Positions 13,059 to 23,995 of a stretch of 29,706 nt of DNA are shown here, one piece after another. The notes below the pieces were generated by a model. That model was not told the DNA's origin. It did no database searches and was given only the letters and a program-made list of their open reading frames with translations. The stretch's first letter is position 1. Each line of letters opens with the position of its first letter. Source of the DNA: a virus; the IMG/VR virus record IMGVR_UViG_3300036834_000083, positions 1-29,706 of that record; one strand, 5' to 3'. A program made the translations under genes and the position numbers.

Positions 13059-13283
13059 TCATTCCGCAGCGATCTGCGCGAACATGCCCGCGTCGTCGCG
13101 CACCCGGCGCTCACTCATTGCGGCATAGCTGGGCGCCAGTTCGATGCCGATACAGTCGCGGCCGAGCTGGTCGGCTACCAGCGCCGTCGTGCCGCTGCCG
13201 AGGAAGGGGTCGAGGACGGTTGCGGGCTTAGTCAGCGGGATGGTCCAATGACCATTATGCGGCACGGTCAGCCGTTGCCGCAT
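13059..13283 (-). CDS. DNA methyltransferase, C-terminal catalytic part in a shifted frame
   Basis: This frame encodes PATVLDPFLGSGTTALVADQ followed by LGRDCIGIELAPSYAAMSERR. That is motif I (DPFLGSGTT), which binds S-adenosylmethionine, and the following strand of an N4/N6 amino-methyltransferase of the beta order. The motif IV part of the same enzyme is in 13255-14538, in a frame one base away. The ATG at 13283 (MRQRLTV) has no visible ribosome binding site, so separate translation is doubtful; a frameshift mutation, programmed shift or sequence error is more likely. 75 codons are counted from that ATG; the open frame extends upstream to 13397. Confidence 0.6.
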   Translation of the reverse strand: MRQRLTVPHNGHWTIPLTKPATVLDPFLGSGTTALVADQLGRDCIGIELAPSYAAMSERRVRDDAGMFAQIAAE

Positions 13284-14538
13284 CGCAGGAGCAGGAGGGG
13301 CGCCAGCCGATGGTCTGCGCTTCTGTCGTGCCGCGCGGGAAACCTTCCCAAGAATTCGACTCGTCCATGGGCTTTTGATCGAATGCGCCCCGCACACCCC
13401 GCTCTTGATTGACGTCGGTCTGCGGTGTGAATTTCTTCTCTACCACCCGCACATACGGCGCGAGACACTTACTGCAGCATCCCCTAGCGCTGGTGCCGGC
13501 GAGGATGGCGCGGCGCGGGATCTCGCTGACGAAGGTGGCGAAGTGCGCCTCGGGGAAGGGCTCGGGGCCGAGCGTCCAGACGTTGCGCATATTTCGCTTG
13601 CTGGTTATACGAGATCCCAACGAAGGCACTCGATCAGCATCAGCTCCGCGTTGTAGGTAACTTTCGCCTCGCTGCGAGCTACTTTCTGTTTCCATTTCGG
13701 CAATAAAGCCGCCGCTTCTAGTCTGCTCTTCAGTTTTGCGTCTGCCCGTTCTTTCGCAGCCATAATTTCCGCCTGATTTCGGACCATTGTTAGCTCCCGA
13801 GTTGTTTTGAATGCCACGCTGATTCTTGTATCGATCGCCGGTTCGGAACTCGAATTGCCCGCCGTGTCCGTTGTCTTCCGCCTCTTCCTTCACCGCCTCA
13901 GCATCGTAGAAATACCGGGCTGATTTCGTCAGCAGGAACACCTTTTCGTGCGCGCAGGTCGGCCGGTCGGTGCACGATTCCGGCATCGGGGCCTTCTTCG
14001 CCCACACGATCTCGCTGCGCAGCCACCAGCCATCGGCCTGCAATGCCAATGCAAAGCGCGCCGGTATCTGCTGCAACTGTTTATTGGCGAAACTGTCGCC
14101 CAGATTCACCCAGCAAGTCGCATCGCGGCGCATCACGCGCTTAACTTCGGCGAACACCTCGACCAAGTGCGCAATGAACAACTCCGGCGTCGGCTCGAGC
14201 CCGAGGTCGCCGCGCCATGCGCCACAGTGGCAGCAGAAGCCCCGCTCTTTGATTTCGCGGATAGGCTCGCGATGCTCGGCGGTCACAGCATTGCGGATGC
14301 CGGCGGCGAGTTGCGGCCCTGAATTGGCTTGGCTCCAGTTGCCTTTTCCGATCTCGGTGCCGATCTGCTCCATTTGAAAATCGTGTCGACAATCCTTACC
14401 GCCGCCCCACACCTGCGGCTCTGTGCCGTATGATCTGAGGCCGTAATAGGGCGGCGATGTAACGACGCAGTGCACGCTCTCATTCGGCAGATCAGCGAGC
14501 CGGGCGAGAACATGACCGACCAGCACACGAACGCTCAT
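13255..14538 (-). CDS. DNA N4/N6 methyltransferase, N-terminal part (broken frame)
   Basis: 427 residues from ATG 14538 (MSVRVLVGHVLARLADLPNE). Motif IV is VVTSPPYYGLRSYG (about residues 24-37). Then follow 'VKRVMRRDATCWVNLGDSFA', 'FALALQADGWWLRSEIVWAK' with KAPMPES, 'AHEKVFLLTKSARYFYDAEA', 'MRNVWTLGPEPFPEAHFATF' and Cys-rich 'GTSARGCCSKCLAPYVRV' with a second 'RPSCSCDAA'. The frame stops at 13257-13255 just before the motif I segment, which is in another frame. This subgroup is common in phages and usually protects DNA from host restriction. It is not of the CcrM type by its motifs. A low-GC patch at 13590-13850 lies in the variable region. The longer frame to 14616 is upstream shadow. Confidence 0.75.
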   Translation of the reverse strand: MSVRVLVGHVLARLADLPNESVHCVVTSPPYYGLRSYGTEPQVWGGGKDCRHDFQMEQIGTEIGKGNWSQANSGPQLAAGIRNAVTAEHREPIREIKERGFCCHCGAWRGDLGLEPTPELFIAHLVEVFAEVKRVMRRDATCWVNLGDSFANKQLQQIPARFALALQADGWWLRSEIVWAKKAPMPESCTDRPTCAHEKVFLLTKSARYFYDAEAVKEEAEDNGHGGQFEFRTGDRYKNQRGIQNNSGANNGPKSGGNYGCERTGRRKTEEQTRSGGFIAEMETESSSQRGESYLQRGADADRVPSLGSRITSKRNMRNVWTLGPEPFPEAHFATFVSEIPRRAILAGTSARGCCSKCLAPYVRVVEKKFTPQTDVNQERGVRGAFDQKPMDESNSWEGFPRGTTEAQTIGWRPSCSCDAATADRAA

Positions 14539-14557
14539 GCCGTGGCGACCGGGCCGC

Positions 14558-14758
14558 TCATGATTTGTCCCTGCTCTGCAACCGCCGCAGCCGCTTGTAG
14601 CGGCGCTGATAATCATTGTAGCGGGTCCGGTTGCGCTGCCGCCAGTGCCGCATGTAGGCAGTGCTGTGCGGCTGCTCGCGGCGTTCGCGCTGGCGTTCGC
14701 GTTCTTGCCGGGTGAAGTCGCGCAATTGCCGGATCAACGCGTCAGCTCCGGTGGTCAC
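14558..14758 (-). CDS. Small very basic protein
   Basis: 66 residues, starting at GTG 14758, which overlaps the stop of the GcrA-like gene (GTGA). The sequence is rich in Arg, Gln and Tyr: LIRQLRDFTRQERERQRERR, then STAYMRHWRQRNRTRYNDYQ and RRYKRLRRLQ. It probably binds nucleic acid, but I do not recognise a family. The longer frame to 15268 is a shadow of the GcrA-like gene. The methyltransferase starts 19 bases after its stop. Confidence 0.55.
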   Translation of the reverse strand: MTTGADALIRQLRDFTRQERERQRERREQPHSTAYMRHWRQRNRTRYNDYQRRYKRLRRLQSRDKS

Positions 14759-15288
14759 GCTGCGATCTCCCGCAGCAGCTCTGCCGGCCGCGGCTTTTGG
14801 TACAGCCGCGCGGCGTGCGCGGCGCACCACGACGAACCCGCCAGGCAGACCTCGCCGCAATAGGCCCAGCCGGGCTCGGCCGGGTCGCCGGCGATCCACC
14901 GGCACCCGGTCTGCCGCACCTGCGGCCAGTTGAGCCGCGCCTCGAGCTGCGCCAGTAGCGGCACCGCCGGCTGCCGACGGCGGTGGACAATCCCGGCGAC
15001 CGCGTTCTTCGTCGCTCCGAGCTCGACGGCGATCTGCGTATAGGTCACCCCCTGCGCGGCGAGCTGCAGCGCCCGCGCGACGCGCTCCGCCGGCCATTGC
15101 GGGCTGACTGGCCGGACCGGCGACCATGGCCGGCCGCCGCGGCGCTTGCGGCGGTAGAGGAAATTGGCGACCGCGGCGGTGGTCGTGCCAAGCTCGCGCG
15201 CGATCGCCACGGGGCCCAGAGCCTGCGCCCGCAATTCGACCACCCGGGCGATGTCCTCGGCGCTCCACCAGCGCTGACGGGCGGTCAT
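14755..15288 (-). CDS. GcrA-like regulator with two DNA-binding domains
   Basis: 177 residues from ATG 15288, which overlaps the preceding stop by ATGA. GcrA of Caulobacter is a sigma70-dependent activator that acts at promoters carrying methylated GANTC. The C-terminal Cys/His segment is diagnostic: GCRWIAGDPAEPGWAYCGEV (C129, C144) followed by CLAGSSWCAAHAARLYQ (C148, C155, H158). Upstream are two helix-turn-helix units instead of the usual one: WWSAEDIARVVELRAQALGP with VAIARELGTTTAAVANFLYR (7-46), and QWPAERVARALQLAAQGVTY with TQIAVELGATKNAVAGIVHR (64-103). Each has the 'W-x-x-E ... IA-x-x-LG-x-T-x-x-AV' pattern. The longer frame to 15396 starts within the repeat array. It probably modulates phage or host promoters. 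Confidence 0.8.
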   Translation of the reverse strand: MTARQRWWSAEDIARVVELRAQALGPVAIARELGTTTAAVANFLYRRKRRGGRPWSPVRPVSPQWPAERVARALQLAAQGVTYTQIAVELGATKNAVAGIVHRRRQPAVPLLAQLEARLNWPQVRQTGCRWIAGDPAEPGWAYCGEVCLAGSSWCAAHAARLYQKPRPAELLREIAA

Positions 15289-15557
15289 TTCCGCGGCCCT
15301 GTCAGCCTGCGGATCTGGAAGCGCCGGATAAACGCCGGATAATTTCCCTCGGAAACCGTTCTGGACCGTCTTGGCTGCCCCGCCGGATAATCCCACCCTT
15401 TAGGGTGATTATCCGGCGGCAGCGGTCCTCCACGAGGCGAGGGCCGCCGGATAAACGCCGGATAATTCTTACCGGAAATCGGCAAAATGGCGGATTTGCT
15501 CGATTCTGCCCGCCGGATAATTGCCGGATAATGTCGATCCGGCGCCGGATAATTCAT
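15285..15557 (-). CDS. Possible 90-residue protein translated from the repeat array
   Basis: The ORF runs from ATG 15557 to stop 15287-15285. It forms ATGA overlaps with the ATPase gene at its start and with the GcrA-like gene at its end, and GGGAGG lies five bases before the ATG, so translation is likely. The product is Pro/Arg/Tyr-rich and repeats (N)YPAFIRR: MNYPAPDRHYPAIIRR, KNYPAFIRRPS and GNYPAFIRRF. The repeats come from the DNA element TTATCCGGCG, which is present in two frames and both orientations, so the DNA rather than the peptide may be under selection. No known family. It may serve only to couple translation of its neighbours. Confidence 0.45.
   Translation of the reverse strand: MNYPAPDRHYPAIIRRAESSKSAILPISGKNYPAFIRRPSPRGGPLPPDNHPKGWDYPAGQPRRSRTVSEGNYPAFIRRFQIRRLTGPRK
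15322..15552. repeat. Array of nine CGCCGGATAA elements, many at 11-bp spacing
   Basis: Copies of CGCCGGATAA start at 15322, 15333, 15381, 15445, 15456, 15511 and 15543 on the plus strand, with a one-mismatch copy at 15522 and an inverted copy at 15409-15418. Three pairs are spaced exactly 11 bp apart, about one helical turn. The inverted copy pairs with that at 15381. The spacing resembles iterons of a replication origin or a repressor array. The core TTATCC on the minus strand is shared with the DnaA box TTATCCACA, but the rest differs. The helicase-like gene lies directly beside it. Confidence 0.75.
15379..15420. repeat. Imperfect inverted repeat inside the array
   Basis: The two arms, GCCGGATAATC-CCACCCT and AGGGT-GATTATCCGGC, meet at TTTAGGG and are complementary except for a two-base bulge. 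The stem is about 18 bp. No U-run follows on either strand, so it is not an ordinary terminator. It could extrude as a cruciform or serve as a dimeric binding site. Confidence 0.6.
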
Positions 15558-16822
15558 CCGGGCCTCCCGATCACAAAAAGTCCGGTCTGCTCCTCGCGTT
15601 GCACCGGGTCGCGGTATTTGTCGAGCTTCAGAAAGTGCCGATCCTGCTTGCCGCTGAGCCAGGTGTTGATGATTTCCCGGCACTGCGTATCGTTGAGCTC
15701 GGGGAAAGCGTCCTTGACGGCAGGCGAGACGGCCCGATCGGTCGCTTTGGCGTGGGTCGTGTAGCGGCGCCCCGGCTGGGGTCCGGCGTCGATGGTGTCG
15801 AGCAGCGCGTTCGCGCGAGAGGCGGTGGCGATTTTCCACAAATCGACGGGCTGCCAACATTCGACCGTCTGCACTTTATCGCCATTGGGGTAAAGTGTCG
15901 TGCCATTGCCGACGTCGACGCCTATGAGCTTGAACCATTTGGCATTTTTAGCCGGCGGCGCAATATTTACCTTGGCCGAGTCCATACGGATCAGCAAGCG
16001 TCTTTCGTCGTCGTCTACATTGAATTGGGCAGCCTCGTCGGCAGTCATCTTGGTCAATGTGTAGACCAGTCTGCCGGCATCCTTTACGGCACTGGCGCCG
16101 CGGCCGATATCGGCATTGCCGGGATCGGCCTGCCCGCCCTTGCGGGTGTGATGCGGGAAGTCGACCGCAATGTGATGGCGGGCCGCGATGTCACTGAGGA
16201 TTTCAGCGACCATATCGAGTGCGTTGTTGTCGTTTTCCTGAACCCCGTGGGTCTTGATCAGCGGATCCAAAATGACCAGGTCGACACCGCGTCGAACAAT
16301 CGTCTCCTCGAGTGCGGCGCCAAGTTTTCCGGGAATGGTGTCGCCGTTCCGGCGCTGCTTGGCGAGCTTCAAATCGCTGCGTGAGACCGCGGCGAGAAAC
16401 AGGTAATCCTTCGTGTCGGCCTTGGTCAGCTTATAGTGAAGCTCGGCCGCCTTCACGCGCCGTCGCAGCTCGTCCCGAGAGTCCTCGAAGCACACCAGCA
16501 ACACGCGGCAGCGATCAAAGACGTGCTCGCCGATCAGCGGCCGGCCGGTGGCCAGGGAGAGCGCGCAAGCAATACGCAAGGCGGTTTTGCCGCTGGCGCC
16601 GTCGCCGAGCAGCGCGGAGAGAAATTCGCGGCAATAGAGGTTGCCGAGCAACCAGCCGCGCGGCGGGATCGGCTCGTCGTCGTCGCCATTGTCCCACTCA
16701 CCGAGGTCGATCGGCGGTTCCGGCTGCGGTTGCCGCTTCGGCGATGATGTTTGTTGAGTGTTCTGGTGTTGGCGCTTGTACGCGTCGTTGAGGCTGTTGT
16801 AAGCGGTGGTTCGTCCTAGCAT
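15554..16822 (-). CDS. RepA/AAA_25-type helicase-like ATPase
   Basis: 422 residues. The central domain is RecA-like: Walker A GDGASGKTAL (73-82), 'VLLVCFEDSRDELRRRVKAA' (107-126) and Walker B VDLVILDPLIKTHG (180-193), then 'AVDFPHHTRKGG' and 'IGRGASAVKDAGR'. This layout is found in RepA-type hexameric helicases of phages and plasmids. The C-terminal part (FPELNDTQCREIINTWLSGK) may be a small helical domain. The N-terminus (1-50) is polar and probably disordered. It likely unwinds phage DNA at the origin. The start ATG 16822 follows the upstream stop by one base; the stop overlaps a 90-codon ORF by ATGA, next to the repeat array. Confidence 0.8.
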   Translation of the reverse strand: MLGRTTAYNSLNDAYKRQHQNTQQTSSPKRQPQPEPPIDLGEWDNGDDDEPIPPRGWLLGNLYCREFLSALLGDGASGKTALRIACALSLATGRPLIGEHVFDRCRVLLVCFEDSRDELRRRVKAAELHYKLTKADTKDYLFLAAVSRSDLKLAKQRRNGDTIPGKLGAALEETIVRRGVDLVILDPLIKTHGVQENDNNALDMVAEILSDIAARHHIAVDFPHHTRKGGQADPGNADIGRGASAVKDAGRLVYTLTKMTADEAAQFNVDDDERRLLIRMDSAKVNIAPPAKNAKWFKLIGVDVGNGTTLYPNGDKVQTVECWQPVDLWKIATASRANALLDTIDAGPQPGRRYTTHAKATDRAVSPAVKDAFPELNDTQCREIINTWLSGKQDRHFLKLDKYRDPVQREEQTGLFVIGRPG

Positions 16823-16823
16823 T

Positions 16824-17438
16824 TTAACTCCCCCAATGATCGTAAGCCGCTTCTGACGTCGGTCGGCGGAAAGTGACCGGCGGCGGTTTTTCGGGCGGCT
16901 TCAGCACCTGCTCCAGTTCAAGCTGATGTGCCCGGTCTTCGGCCTGCCAGCCGTGGTCGAGGCACCACAGCACCCGGCGGCGTTCCTCGGCGCTGCCGAG
17001 CAGCACCACTCCTTCGCAGCCGGACTGCAGCCAGCGCAGCACCGAGCGGTGGACGAGTTGCGCAAAGGGTTCGTGCAGGTCGACCGCGCCGAGCCAGGTG
17101 GCGTTGCCGCAGCGCCGGTGCATCGTGTTGGGATGACGCGGGCACCAGGAGACCAGGTCGATCAGATTACCGAAACGCACCCACAGGTCGGGACGCGCGG
17201 TCAGCGGCGTGTCGGGATAGTGCACGCAAACCGGCGTAATGTAGGCGAGCTCGCCCGCCGGGTCGGGTTCGAACAGATCGTCTTTGCCGGTAAACCGGAT
17301 CGGCGCGATCCCGACGAGCTGCGCGAAGAACAGCATCGGCGCCGAAATGCCGAGCTCGTCGCACAGCTCGGCGCCGTCGGCCTCGACCAGGTTGGCGAAC
17401 GCCTGCGCCATCTCGGCGGCAAGCTGAGCGGTTTTCAT
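16824..17438 (-). CDS. Unknown protein upstream of the helicase
   Basis: 204 residues from ATG 17438 (MKTAQLAAEM), which overlaps the upstream stop by ATGA and has GGAGAGG immediately upstream. Features are a helical N-terminus, then APIRFTGKDDLFEPDPAGEL, 'WVRFGNLIDLVSWCPRHPNT', 'GNATWLGAVDLHEPFAQLVH' and 'WLQSGCEGVVLLGS'. Proteins with a 'DLV-x-W-x-P..P..R-x-G-x-A-x-WLG' segment and 'W-L-x-x-GC-x-G' are encoded beside AAA ATPase genes in alphaproteobacterial prophages, but I know no function. The Trp/Cys-rich core could be a nucleotide or DNA-interacting domain like those in primase-associated proteins; this is speculative. Confidence 0.6.
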   Translation of the reverse strand: MKTAQLAAEMAQAFANLVEADGAELCDELGISAPMLFFAQLVGIAPIRFTGKDDLFEPDPAGELAYITPVCVHYPDTPLTARPDLWVRFGNLIDLVSWCPRHPNTMHRRCGNATWLGAVDLHEPFAQLVHRSVLRWLQSGCEGVVLLGSAEERRRVLWCLDHGWQAEDRAHQLELEQVLKPPEKPPPVTFRRPTSEAAYDHWGS

Positions 17439-17773
17439 TCTCCTCTCTCCGGGTTGCGACCCGGCGGGAGAGCGGCCCGAAATTCGGCGCAAAGGCGCCC
17501 GATCGCGGAACATAAATTTTCCGCTTGCGGACGATCTGATTTTCGAGGAATATCTCGCCTGCCACGGCAGAGATATTCCCCGGCTTCGTGCCGGATCACC
17601 GGCCCGCCCTCCTCCCAGGCGGGTCTTTGATTTCTGGGTCTTGGCTTCCCTTCACTCGCTTCAATCCGCGCCGCGCAAACGGCGAAGCGCGAGTGTAGCG
17701 CCTCGGCGGCGTCGAGTCGCGCCTGAGGGCGCTCCAGGGCGGAAATAATTTTCGGGCGTGGAATATTTTCCAT
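17435..17773 (-). CDS. Small basic protein of unknown function
   Basis: 112 residues from ATG 17773, with GGGAG six bases upstream. The sequence is Arg/Pro-rich: PRPKIISALERPQARLDAAE, 'RNQRPAWEEGGPVIRHEAGE', and 'ENLCSAIGRLCAEFRAALPP'. It is coupled by ATGA to the next gene. I recognise no family. The ORF is real by context (position in a coupled operon) rather than by homology; overlapping ORFs in other frames are shadows. Confidence 0.5.
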   Translation of the reverse strand: MENIPRPKIISALERPQARLDAAEALHSRFAVCAARIEASEGKPRPRNQRPAWEEGGPVIRHEAGEYLCRGRRDIPRKSDRPQAENLCSAIGRLCAEFRAALPPGRNPERGE

Positions 17774-22386: not shown

Positions 22387-22596
22387 ATGAAAACCAATAT
22401 CGCGATCCTGGTCAACATGTGCGACGTGGAAATCACGCCTACCGGAGATGTGCAATTCGCCGCGGTGACCGCGCTGATGGCGGCGCTCCGCGACGGCTGC
22501 CCCGGCGGCTGGACCGTCGCGGCCGACGCCGCCAACGGCGTCATTACCGTAACCCGCAACCCCAGCAGCGCAAAGGAGGCATCCCCCCATGCCTGA
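22387..22596 (+). CDS. Small protein of unknown function
   Basis: 69 residues from ATG 22387, three bases after the upstream stop. The sequence is compact with a beta-alpha-beta look: NIAILVNMCDVEITPTGDVQ, 'FAAVTALMAALRDGCPGGWT', 'VAADAANGVITVTRNP'. No family is recognised. It overlaps the Bet start by 8 bases and lies in the same operon. Confidence 0.55.
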   Translation: MKTNIAILVNMCDVEITPTGDVQFAAVTALMAALRDGCPGGWTVAADAANGVITVTRNPSSAKEASPHA

Positions 22597-23995
22597 CGGC
22601 GATCAGACCGTTGTAGCGATTCCCGAGACTCGACCAGATTTAATCAAACTCTCGCCGCCGCGGCTGCCGTGGCACCCCGACCTAAAGGAGCGCTTCGACA
22701 TCGATGGCGCTCAATGGCGCGCGCTGATCGATGCGATCTGGCCCGCCGCCAAGAGCGTCGATTCAATCGTCAATGCGCTCTCCTACTGCAAGGCACGCCG
22801 CCTCGACCCGTTCAAGCGGCCCGTCCACATCGTGCCGGTGTGGTCACGGACGGCCAATAAGATGATTGAGACGATCTGGCCGGGGATCGGCGAATTGCGC
22901 ACCACGGCGTTTCGCACCGGCCTCTATGCCGGGCGCGACAAACCCGAGTTCGGCCCCGACAAGACCATGGATCTGGGCGGCGTCGCGGTCACCTTCCCGG
23001 AATATTGTGAACTCACGGTGTACCGGCTCGACCGCAATGGCCAGCGGATGGCTTATCCGGGCCCGCGGGTCTACTGGCTGGAGAGTTATGCGACGGCGGC
23101 GCGCGACACGCAGGCTCCCAATGAAATGTGGCGGAAGCGTCCGCGCGGGCAGCTCGAAAAATGCAGCGAAGCTGCCGCATTACGCGCCGCCTTCCCCGAG
23201 GAGATCGGCAACGACTACACCGACGACGAGATGCGCGGGCAGGTCGTCGACCATGAGCCAGGCCCGCCGCCGCCGCGCCCACGCATGGAGGAATTCGCCG
23301 TAGCCGCGGCTCCTCAGACCGCAGGCGATACCGCAACCAGACCGGCCGCTGATGCAACACCGCGCCGCGGACGTGGCAGCCCTCGCACCAAGCCGGCGGC
23401 GCAGGCGGCGGAGCCCAACCCGCCGCCCGAGGACAAACCCTATTCCTTCGCCGATCATTTGGGCGAAGTGCACGAGTTCGTGGAGTTTGAAGAGGCGGTT
23501 GCCGCCTATGCCGACGTGCTCGCCGCCGTCGACAGCACGGCCGCGCTCGAAGCCGCCTGGGAGAACGGCGCGGCGCTGATCCAGGCCTTGCGCGACAAGG
23601 GGCATGGCAGCGCCGTCGACGCGCTCGTCCGGCAGTTTTCCGAGCTGCGCGCGGCGTTTGAGCCGGAGGAAGACGCACCGGAAGACGCACCGGAAGACGC
23701 ACCGGAAGACGCACCGGAAGACGCACCGGAAGACGCCTCAAATGAGGCGGCAAAAAGTAACGTGGCATCTGCCGCTTACGACGTCGCGGTGCCGATGACC
23801 GGCACGGCGCAGGCGTGGTTTCAGCCTGCTCGCGCCAAATTGCGCGAGATGACCGAGGCCGGGCGCCCGCCGGTCGATTTCAAACGCTTCAGGGCGGAAA
23901 ACGCCACGGCATTGGCGTTGCTCAAGAAGACCATGAGCGCGTGGTATGGGATCCTGGAAAAAATCATCGCGGCCGGCGAGACCGGGCCCGGATGA
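22589..23995 (+). CDS. bet: Bet/RecT-family single-strand annealing protein
   Basis: 468 residues, starting at ATG 22589 after a strong AAGGAGG. The N-terminal 200 residues match phage recombination protein Bet: FDIDGAQWRALIDAIWPAAK, 'YCKARRLDPFKRPVHIVPVW', 'IETIWPGIGELRTTAFRTGL', 'YTAARDTQAPNEMWRKRPRG'-type sequence (here ATAARDTQAPNEMWRKRPRG) and 'QLEKCSEAAALRAAFPEEIG'. It anneals single strands during phage recombination. The C-terminal half is an extension: Pro/Arg-rich linker, a helical part (EFEEAVAAYADVLAAVDSTA), an EDAP repeat, and a final helical domain. The end overlaps the HIRAN gene by ATGA. No exonuclease partner is visible in the window apart from the VRR-NUC gene. Confidence 0.85.
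   Translation: MPDGDQTVVAIPETRPDLIKLSPPRLPWHPDLKERFDIDGAQWRALIDAIWPAAKSVDSIVNALSYCKARRLDPFKRPVHIVPVWSRTANKMIETIWPGIGELRTTAFRTGLYAGRDKPEFGPDKTMDLGGVAVTFPEYCELTVYRLDRNGQRMAYPGPRVYWLESYATAARDTQAPNEMWRKRPRGQLEKCSEAAALRAAFPEEIGNDYTDDEMRGQVVDHEPGPPPPRPRMEEFAVAAAPQTAGDTATRPAADATPRRGRGSPRTKPAAQAAEPNPPPEDKPYSFADHLGEVHEFVEFEEAVAAYADVLAAVDSTAALEAAWENGAALIQALRDKGHGSAVDALVRQFSELRAAFEPEEDAPEDAPEDAPEDAPEDAPEDASNEAAKSNVASAAYDVAVPMTGTAQAWFQPARAKLREMTEAGRPPVDFKRFRAENATALALLKKTMSAWYGILEKIIAAGETGPG
23669..23740 (+). repeat. Six 12-bp repeats encoding EDAP
   Basis: Five exact copies of GAAGACGCACCG and one diverged (GAAGACGCCTCA) lie in frame within the Bet-like gene and encode an acidic EDAP repeat. The identity of the copies suggests recent slippage expansion. 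Confidence 0.9.

Follow-up and report, generated by a model that had tools for sequence, protein, structure and literature searches.

What is the function of the repeats that lie between a helicase gene and a GcrA-like gene in this viral DNA, and which protein would read them? The window, that is the whole 29.7-kb stretch analysed here (29,706 nucleotides), encodes terminase, head-tail, capsid and tail-fibre genes, most of them on the minus strand. An N6/N4 DNA methyltransferase gene occurs at 13255-14616 and a gene for a RecT-family annealing protein at 22589-23995, the latter oriented against the majority of the genes. The repeats are contained in a gap of 265 bp, delimited by the helicase stop codon (15554) and the GcrA-like ATG (15288) (Table 1).

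The 10-mer CGCCGGATAA occurs exactly in eight copies in the gap, seven on the plus strand and one inverted, and a ninth copy, TGCCGGATAA, carries one mismatch; the nine copies reported in the preliminary description are thus obtained if one mismatch is allowed. The 9-mer GCCGGATAA, common to all nine, has exactly nine occurrences, against at most two for the best 9-mer of the shuffled gap (2000 mononucleotide shuffles), and no exact copy of CGCCGGATAA was found outside the gap in a scan of the whole 29.7 kb. These counts confirm that the repeat array is real. The three pairs at 11 bp described earlier (15322/15333, 15445/15456 and 15511/15522) were recovered, the copies at 15522 and 15543 being 21 bp apart, as was the long stem, formed by the copy at 15381 and the inverted one at 15409. 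The additional argument that a spacing of 11, not a multiple of three, and an inverted copy exclude an effect of the encoded peptide is moot, since the array is intergenic.

Table 1. Features of the array region and of the adjoining genes in the window.
Feature	Position	Strand	Basis or remark
GcrA-like gene	14755-15288	-	HTH and GcrA matches
Intergenic region, putative replication origin	15289-15553	.	Position 3' of helicase conserved among relatives
Iteron CGCCGGATAA (gene strand TTATCCGGCG)	15322-15331	+	Exact match
Iteron CGCCGGATAA, 11 bp after 15322 copy	15333-15342	+	Exact match
Central hairpin	15374-15423	.	Core CCCTTTAGGG at 15396-15405 (gene strand CCCTAAAGGG)
Iteron CGCCGGATAA, one arm of central hairpin	15381-15390	+	Exact match and folding
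Iteron CGCCGGATAA inverted, other arm of central hairpin	15409-15418	-	Exact match and folding
Iteron CGCCGGATAA	15445-15454	+	Exact match
Iteron CGCCGGATAA, 11 bp after 15445 copy	15456-15465	+	Exact match
Iteron CGCCGGATAA	15511-15520	+	Exact match
Iteron TGCCGGATAA, one mismatch	15522-15531	+	11 bp after 15511 copy
Degenerate tenth iteron CGCCGGATCG, palindromic overlap with last copy	15535-15544	-	
Iteron CGCCGGATAA, end adjoins helicase stop codon	15543-15552	+	Exact match
RepA-family replicative helicase (SF4, RecA-fold), 422 aa, C-terminal winged helix	15554-16822	-	
C-terminal winged helix, residues about 328-422, putative iteron-binding domain	15557-15841	-	Model and family covariation

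The helicase matches Pfam AAA_25 (RecA-fold RepA; E 9e-37) and no other domain, with no SF3/D5-type helicase domain found. It gives a profile match to RSF1010 RepA (1G8Y) at E 7e-26, and the top Foldseek matches of its fold are 1nlf, 1olo and 1g8y. Beyond the part that resembles RSF1010 RepA, the protein has some 100 extra C-terminal residues predicted to form a winged helix with the order H-H-H-E-E (AlphaFold pLDDT of 88 for the tail domain alone and 91 for the whole helicase). Fold comparison of this tail returned unspecific winged-helix matches only (Z up to 7.1), and the P4 alpha domain was absent among the matches listed. Several of the helicase C-termini of loci L018, L022, L024, L025, L031, L032 and L035 end in an acidic stretch with a terminal D/E-x-PF, which resembles the tail of SSB and could be a docking site for a partner protein.

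Homologues of the helicase occur on Microvirga, Methylobacterium and Rhodoplanes plasmids, on 80 bacterial contigs and on many virus contigs; P0001 as sole query of the viral contigs recovered no relative, and alignment queries were needed to retrieve them. Of 165 distinct loci, 103 have one 8-mer repeated at least four times within the first 300 bp 3' of the helicase gene, compared with 41 of 8673 control windows drawn from the same loci, and in about a dozen of the flanks that appeared to lack an array, this was located 350-500 bp further on. The 130 clear arrays are built on 63 distinct 9-mers, with repeat words of 8-10 bp. The words of the relatives differ from GCCGGATAA (e.g., GGTGGCGCA, GGTGAGGAA, ACTGGAGCA, ACTGACGAC and ATTCGGGCA), and those of the closest relatives of the window are CATTCGGGCA and CGTTGGCGCA. 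A recurrent layout consists of a reverse-complement word, about 20 bp, a word, 10-11 bp and a further word, followed by a reverse-complement word, a hairpin and a word. Neighbouring words in the same orientation are most often 8-11 bp apart (210/370), so that the helical phasing proposed earlier applies to the three 11-bp pairs of the window, while strict 11-bp spacing is no rule of the family. As to conservation in related phages, the helicase and the array architecture are kept and each locus has its own word; the relatives do not keep the protein at the expense of the DNA repeats, the architecture persisting while the word sequence is replaced.

Among cultured phages, the same kind of array is present in Rhodoferax phage P26218 and Microcystis phage Mae-Yong1326-1, and no clear array was seen in the 3' gap of the helicase genes of Yersinia X1, Azospirillum, E. 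coli phage BUCT618 and ctfPj964. In the Rhodoferax phage (L201, 2369-3171), a separate gene of 97 aa overlaps the RepA stop codon and is followed by eight copies of CTGCTACAA and a hairpin, an arrangement suggestive of a helicase whose winged-helix reader has been split off. Two helicase loci with different words occur per genome in Methylobacterium longum (L089/L115) and in Methylobacterium sp. J-068 (L043/L051), as expected if equal words within one genome are incompatible. An exact-word scan of the viral contigs gave a single match, L004, an unrelated phage contig with the same word as the window and a different replication module. There, three repeats resembling GCCGGATAA and spaced by 11 bp (2298-2330) lie within the coding sequence of a gene close to one for a DnaB-like helicase.

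The central hairpin of the window is strong (DNA MFE -21.1 kcal/mol, z -5.2, with none of 200 shuffles as good), and its counterpart recurs in the family. Of the 130 array flanks, 63 contain a hairpin of the form CCC(A/T)3-6GGG, as do 26 of 3478 control windows (0.7%); its core is mostly CCCTTTAGGG or CCCTAAAGGG, and in 53 of the 63 loci with the hairpin it is flanked by inverted words. The array is thus twofold, a word that differs by locus being combined with a hairpin that stays constant.

If the variable word is read by the helicase, the two should change together. Word similarity follows identity of the C-terminal domain once the ATPase core is accounted for (partial r 0.33, permutation maximum 0.16), compared with a partial r of 0.08 for the core given the C-terminal domain, and in a segment scan along the helicase the extra word signal rises only in residues 322-412. 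Three alignment columns of the tail domain stand out. Gln at column 489 goes with GG at word positions 1-2 (80/83) and Arg or Lys with AC (19/21); Arg at column 582, in the wing, goes with C8 (74/74), other residues occurring mostly with A, G or T (31/35); and Asn, Met, Glu or Gly at column 583 goes with G6 (50/50), Arg, Lys or His being found mostly with A or C (43/51). High mutual information between word position 4 and core column 146 was dropped and left unused, because the position hardly varies and the signal comes from 11 outlier words.

The three residue-base rules were fixed in writing before new loci were fetched. In the held-out set of 39 loci with less than 90% identity to the training set, a few of which were former no-array flanks whose words were already known when the rules were written, the rules held in 38/39 (column 582), 36/38 (column 489) and 34/37 (column 583) cases. 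By residue class, the agreement was 21/23 for Gln-GG and 15/15 for Arg/Lys-AC at column 489, 34/34 for Arg-C8 and 4/5 for non-Arg residues at column 582, and 12/12 for N/M/E/G-G6 and 22/25 for R/K/H-A/C at column 583. In a tree built from the core domain, a change at column 582 shared its branch with one at base 8 in 20 cases (1.95 expected), and a change at column 489 with one at base 2 in 19 (1.43 expected). In the whole protein, the best predictor of base 8 is column 582 (p 6e-29, the next column 6e-7) and that of base 2 is column 489 (p 3e-28, the next 8e-9). Given these same-branch changes and single-column predictors, shared descent alone is insufficient as an explanation. Since the word changes together with specific residues of the winged helix, comparison indicates that this domain reads the array in the helicase family. 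No description of a residue-base code across such a helicase family was found in open papers, most of the subscription literature lying outside the search.

The window itself belongs to a divergent clade, with L116-L119 at 45-52% identity, in which the wing reads D-P-x-x-R with the Arg one column later, so that the Arg-C8 rule fits this clade only after a shift of one residue. With this post hoc shift, R409 fits C8 of the window word in the orientation TATCCGGCG, for which orientation and register were chosen manually with L116-L119 as the guide. E410 likewise fits G6 and C5, an E-C5 agreement that is absent from L118 and L119. The code is established on the main clade, and the window, agreeing post hoc, is only consistent with it.

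Several replication systems resemble this arrangement in part. SaPI Rep recognises, through its C-terminal domain, multiple short iterons that follow immediately after the Rep gene itself (PMC7581432). The layout of SaPI Rep/ori, and also of SCCmec Cch2, is that of the window, a helicase tail with short iterons directly 3' of the gene, but Rep and Cch2 are D5_N/DUF927-type helicases, whereas the window motor is of the RecA-fold RepA family. Satellite phage P4 likewise carries on its replication protein a winged helix for origin repeats (a binding that is presumed in the window), although P4 alpha belongs to another helicase superfamily, SF3, and the primase is separate or varied in the window family. 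The alpha winged helix binds the origin repeats, and unwinding and priming follow (PMC4234260). Lacking an SF3/D5 domain, the window helicase would work like the SaPI/P4 type and is no member of it.

IncQ/RSF1010 (RepA-RepB'-RepC) shares with the window family a RepA-type hexameric helicase, iterons and short stem-loops, which in RSF1010 are the ssi hairpins where the primase starts. RSF1010-type iterons, of about 20 bp at 22-bp spacing, are not matched by the family words, which are shorter (9-10 bp, at 10-11 bp spacing) and vary by locus. A separate RepC, for which no match was found among the scanned subset of window proteins, binds the iterons in IncQ, whereas in the window family the reader would be a winged helix joined to the helicase itself. 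Unwinding in RSF1010 is done by RepA, and RepB' primes at the stem-loops that have become exposed (PMC4234260). In pRN1 of Sulfolobus, the origin is directly 3' of the replication-protein gene, and a C-terminal winged helix and a required stem-loop are present (PMC4234260), features in which it resembles the window; pRN1 differs in that iterons are lacking, the primase is archaeo-eukaryotic and the helicase belongs to SF3. The best reading of the window module is that of a SaPI/P4 layout on an RSF1010 RepA motor, with the putative iteron reader fused to the helicase.

It is therefore with considerable confidence that we propose the array as the replication origin of the phage, with iterons bound by the C-terminal winged helix of the helicase, which would load itself at the hairpin. 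Helicase subunits would bind the TTATCCGGCG iterons through this domain and so accumulate on both the tandem and the inverted copies that surround the CCCTAAAGGG hairpin; the bound helicase would then melt the DNA at the array and load itself as a hexamer, and a primase would begin synthesis, for which the hairpin, once exposed, may be the start signal. For the window, helicase binding, self-loading, melting, the role of the hairpin and the start of replication at the array are all inferred; in the family, comparison of the loci shows that the array travels with the helicase gene and that architecture and hairpin are kept while the word varies. Primases vary among the relatives, including a toprim gene, a RepB-primase-like fusion (in one relative) and a Prim-Pol fusion. 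In the window, an ORF of 229 aa with no family match (16824-17513), directly upstream of the helicase gene, is a possible place of the missing primase. The cumulative GC-skew minimum of the window is at 15605, beside the array, as the origin reading suggested in the preliminary description would have it, but no mean switch occurs at the array in 111 relatives, and GC skew therefore counts as weak support. An AT-rich unwinding element was rejected, the AT excess before the hairpin being just 5-8%.

The covariation shows binding and not initiation, and the array bound by the helicase might serve in regulation or incompatibility (by autorepression, copy control or handcuffing) while synthesis starts elsewhere. 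Plasmid iterons do both jobs, serving in replication initiation and in regulation and incompatibility, and the lack of a general skew switch at the array is in line with such a role. We nevertheless regard it as improbable, since a place 3' of the helicase gene is poor for autorepression and the conserved hairpin within the array, together with the SaPI precedent, favours an origin. Much less credit is due to a role in RNA, in which the hairpin and repeats would terminate or attenuate transcription behind the helicase operon: a strong G+C-rich hairpin does lie 3' of the gene in many loci, but no T-run follows it in the window, and tandem words outside the hairpin that covary with a DNA-binding domain need a reader at the DNA level.

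The same low standing is given to operators of a phage regulator acting on the downstream gene, such as the adjacent GcrA-like protein. The array immediately precedes the start codon of the GcrA-like gene (15288), a usual place for an operator, and the protein has HTH and GcrA matches; yet at the loci of the relatives, which keep the array, neither the GcrA-like gene nor any other neighbour except the helicase was seen, and the word covaries with the helicase tail. The GcrA-like protein, named earlier as a candidate binder, was rejected on synteny and covariation. Hence, of the two DNA-level functions envisaged at the outset, origin iterons have strong comparative support and operator sites do not. 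Binding by host DnaA, which had been suggested by the TTATCC core common to the array and the DnaA box TTATCCACA, has a negligible probability: no copy in the array attains TTATCCACA or matches the consensus TTATNCACA, and the words of the relatives, including those of the nearest ones (CATTCGGGCA and CGTTGGCGCA), share no DnaA core. Exact TTWTNCACA occurs in the window only at 15832 (TTTTCCACA, inside the helicase gene) and 21400 (TTATCCACA), which is the chance level.

The candidate iteron origin is of the known kind in which an initiator helicase has its origin downstream, and the unexpected element is the residue-to-base code. We give even odds to a wider reading in which RepA-type helicases of phages and plasmids would form a large origin-binding family with a code at one residue before a W-[VF]-G motif and two in the wing, from which the word may be predicted; the words would diverge fast, and differ between elements within one cell, because cross-talk or incompatibility of co-resident elements is avoided. 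A readable code of this type would make the origin word predictable from the protein sequence. The comparison provides a predicted origin and its reader for a large group of phages, prophages and plasmids, most of them uncultured, from Alphaproteobacteria and further afield, and origin specificity takes the form of a code open to testing at the level of single residues. The many natural, mutually distinct pairs of origin and helicase also allow the question of whether iteron divergence sets the compatibility of co-resident elements.
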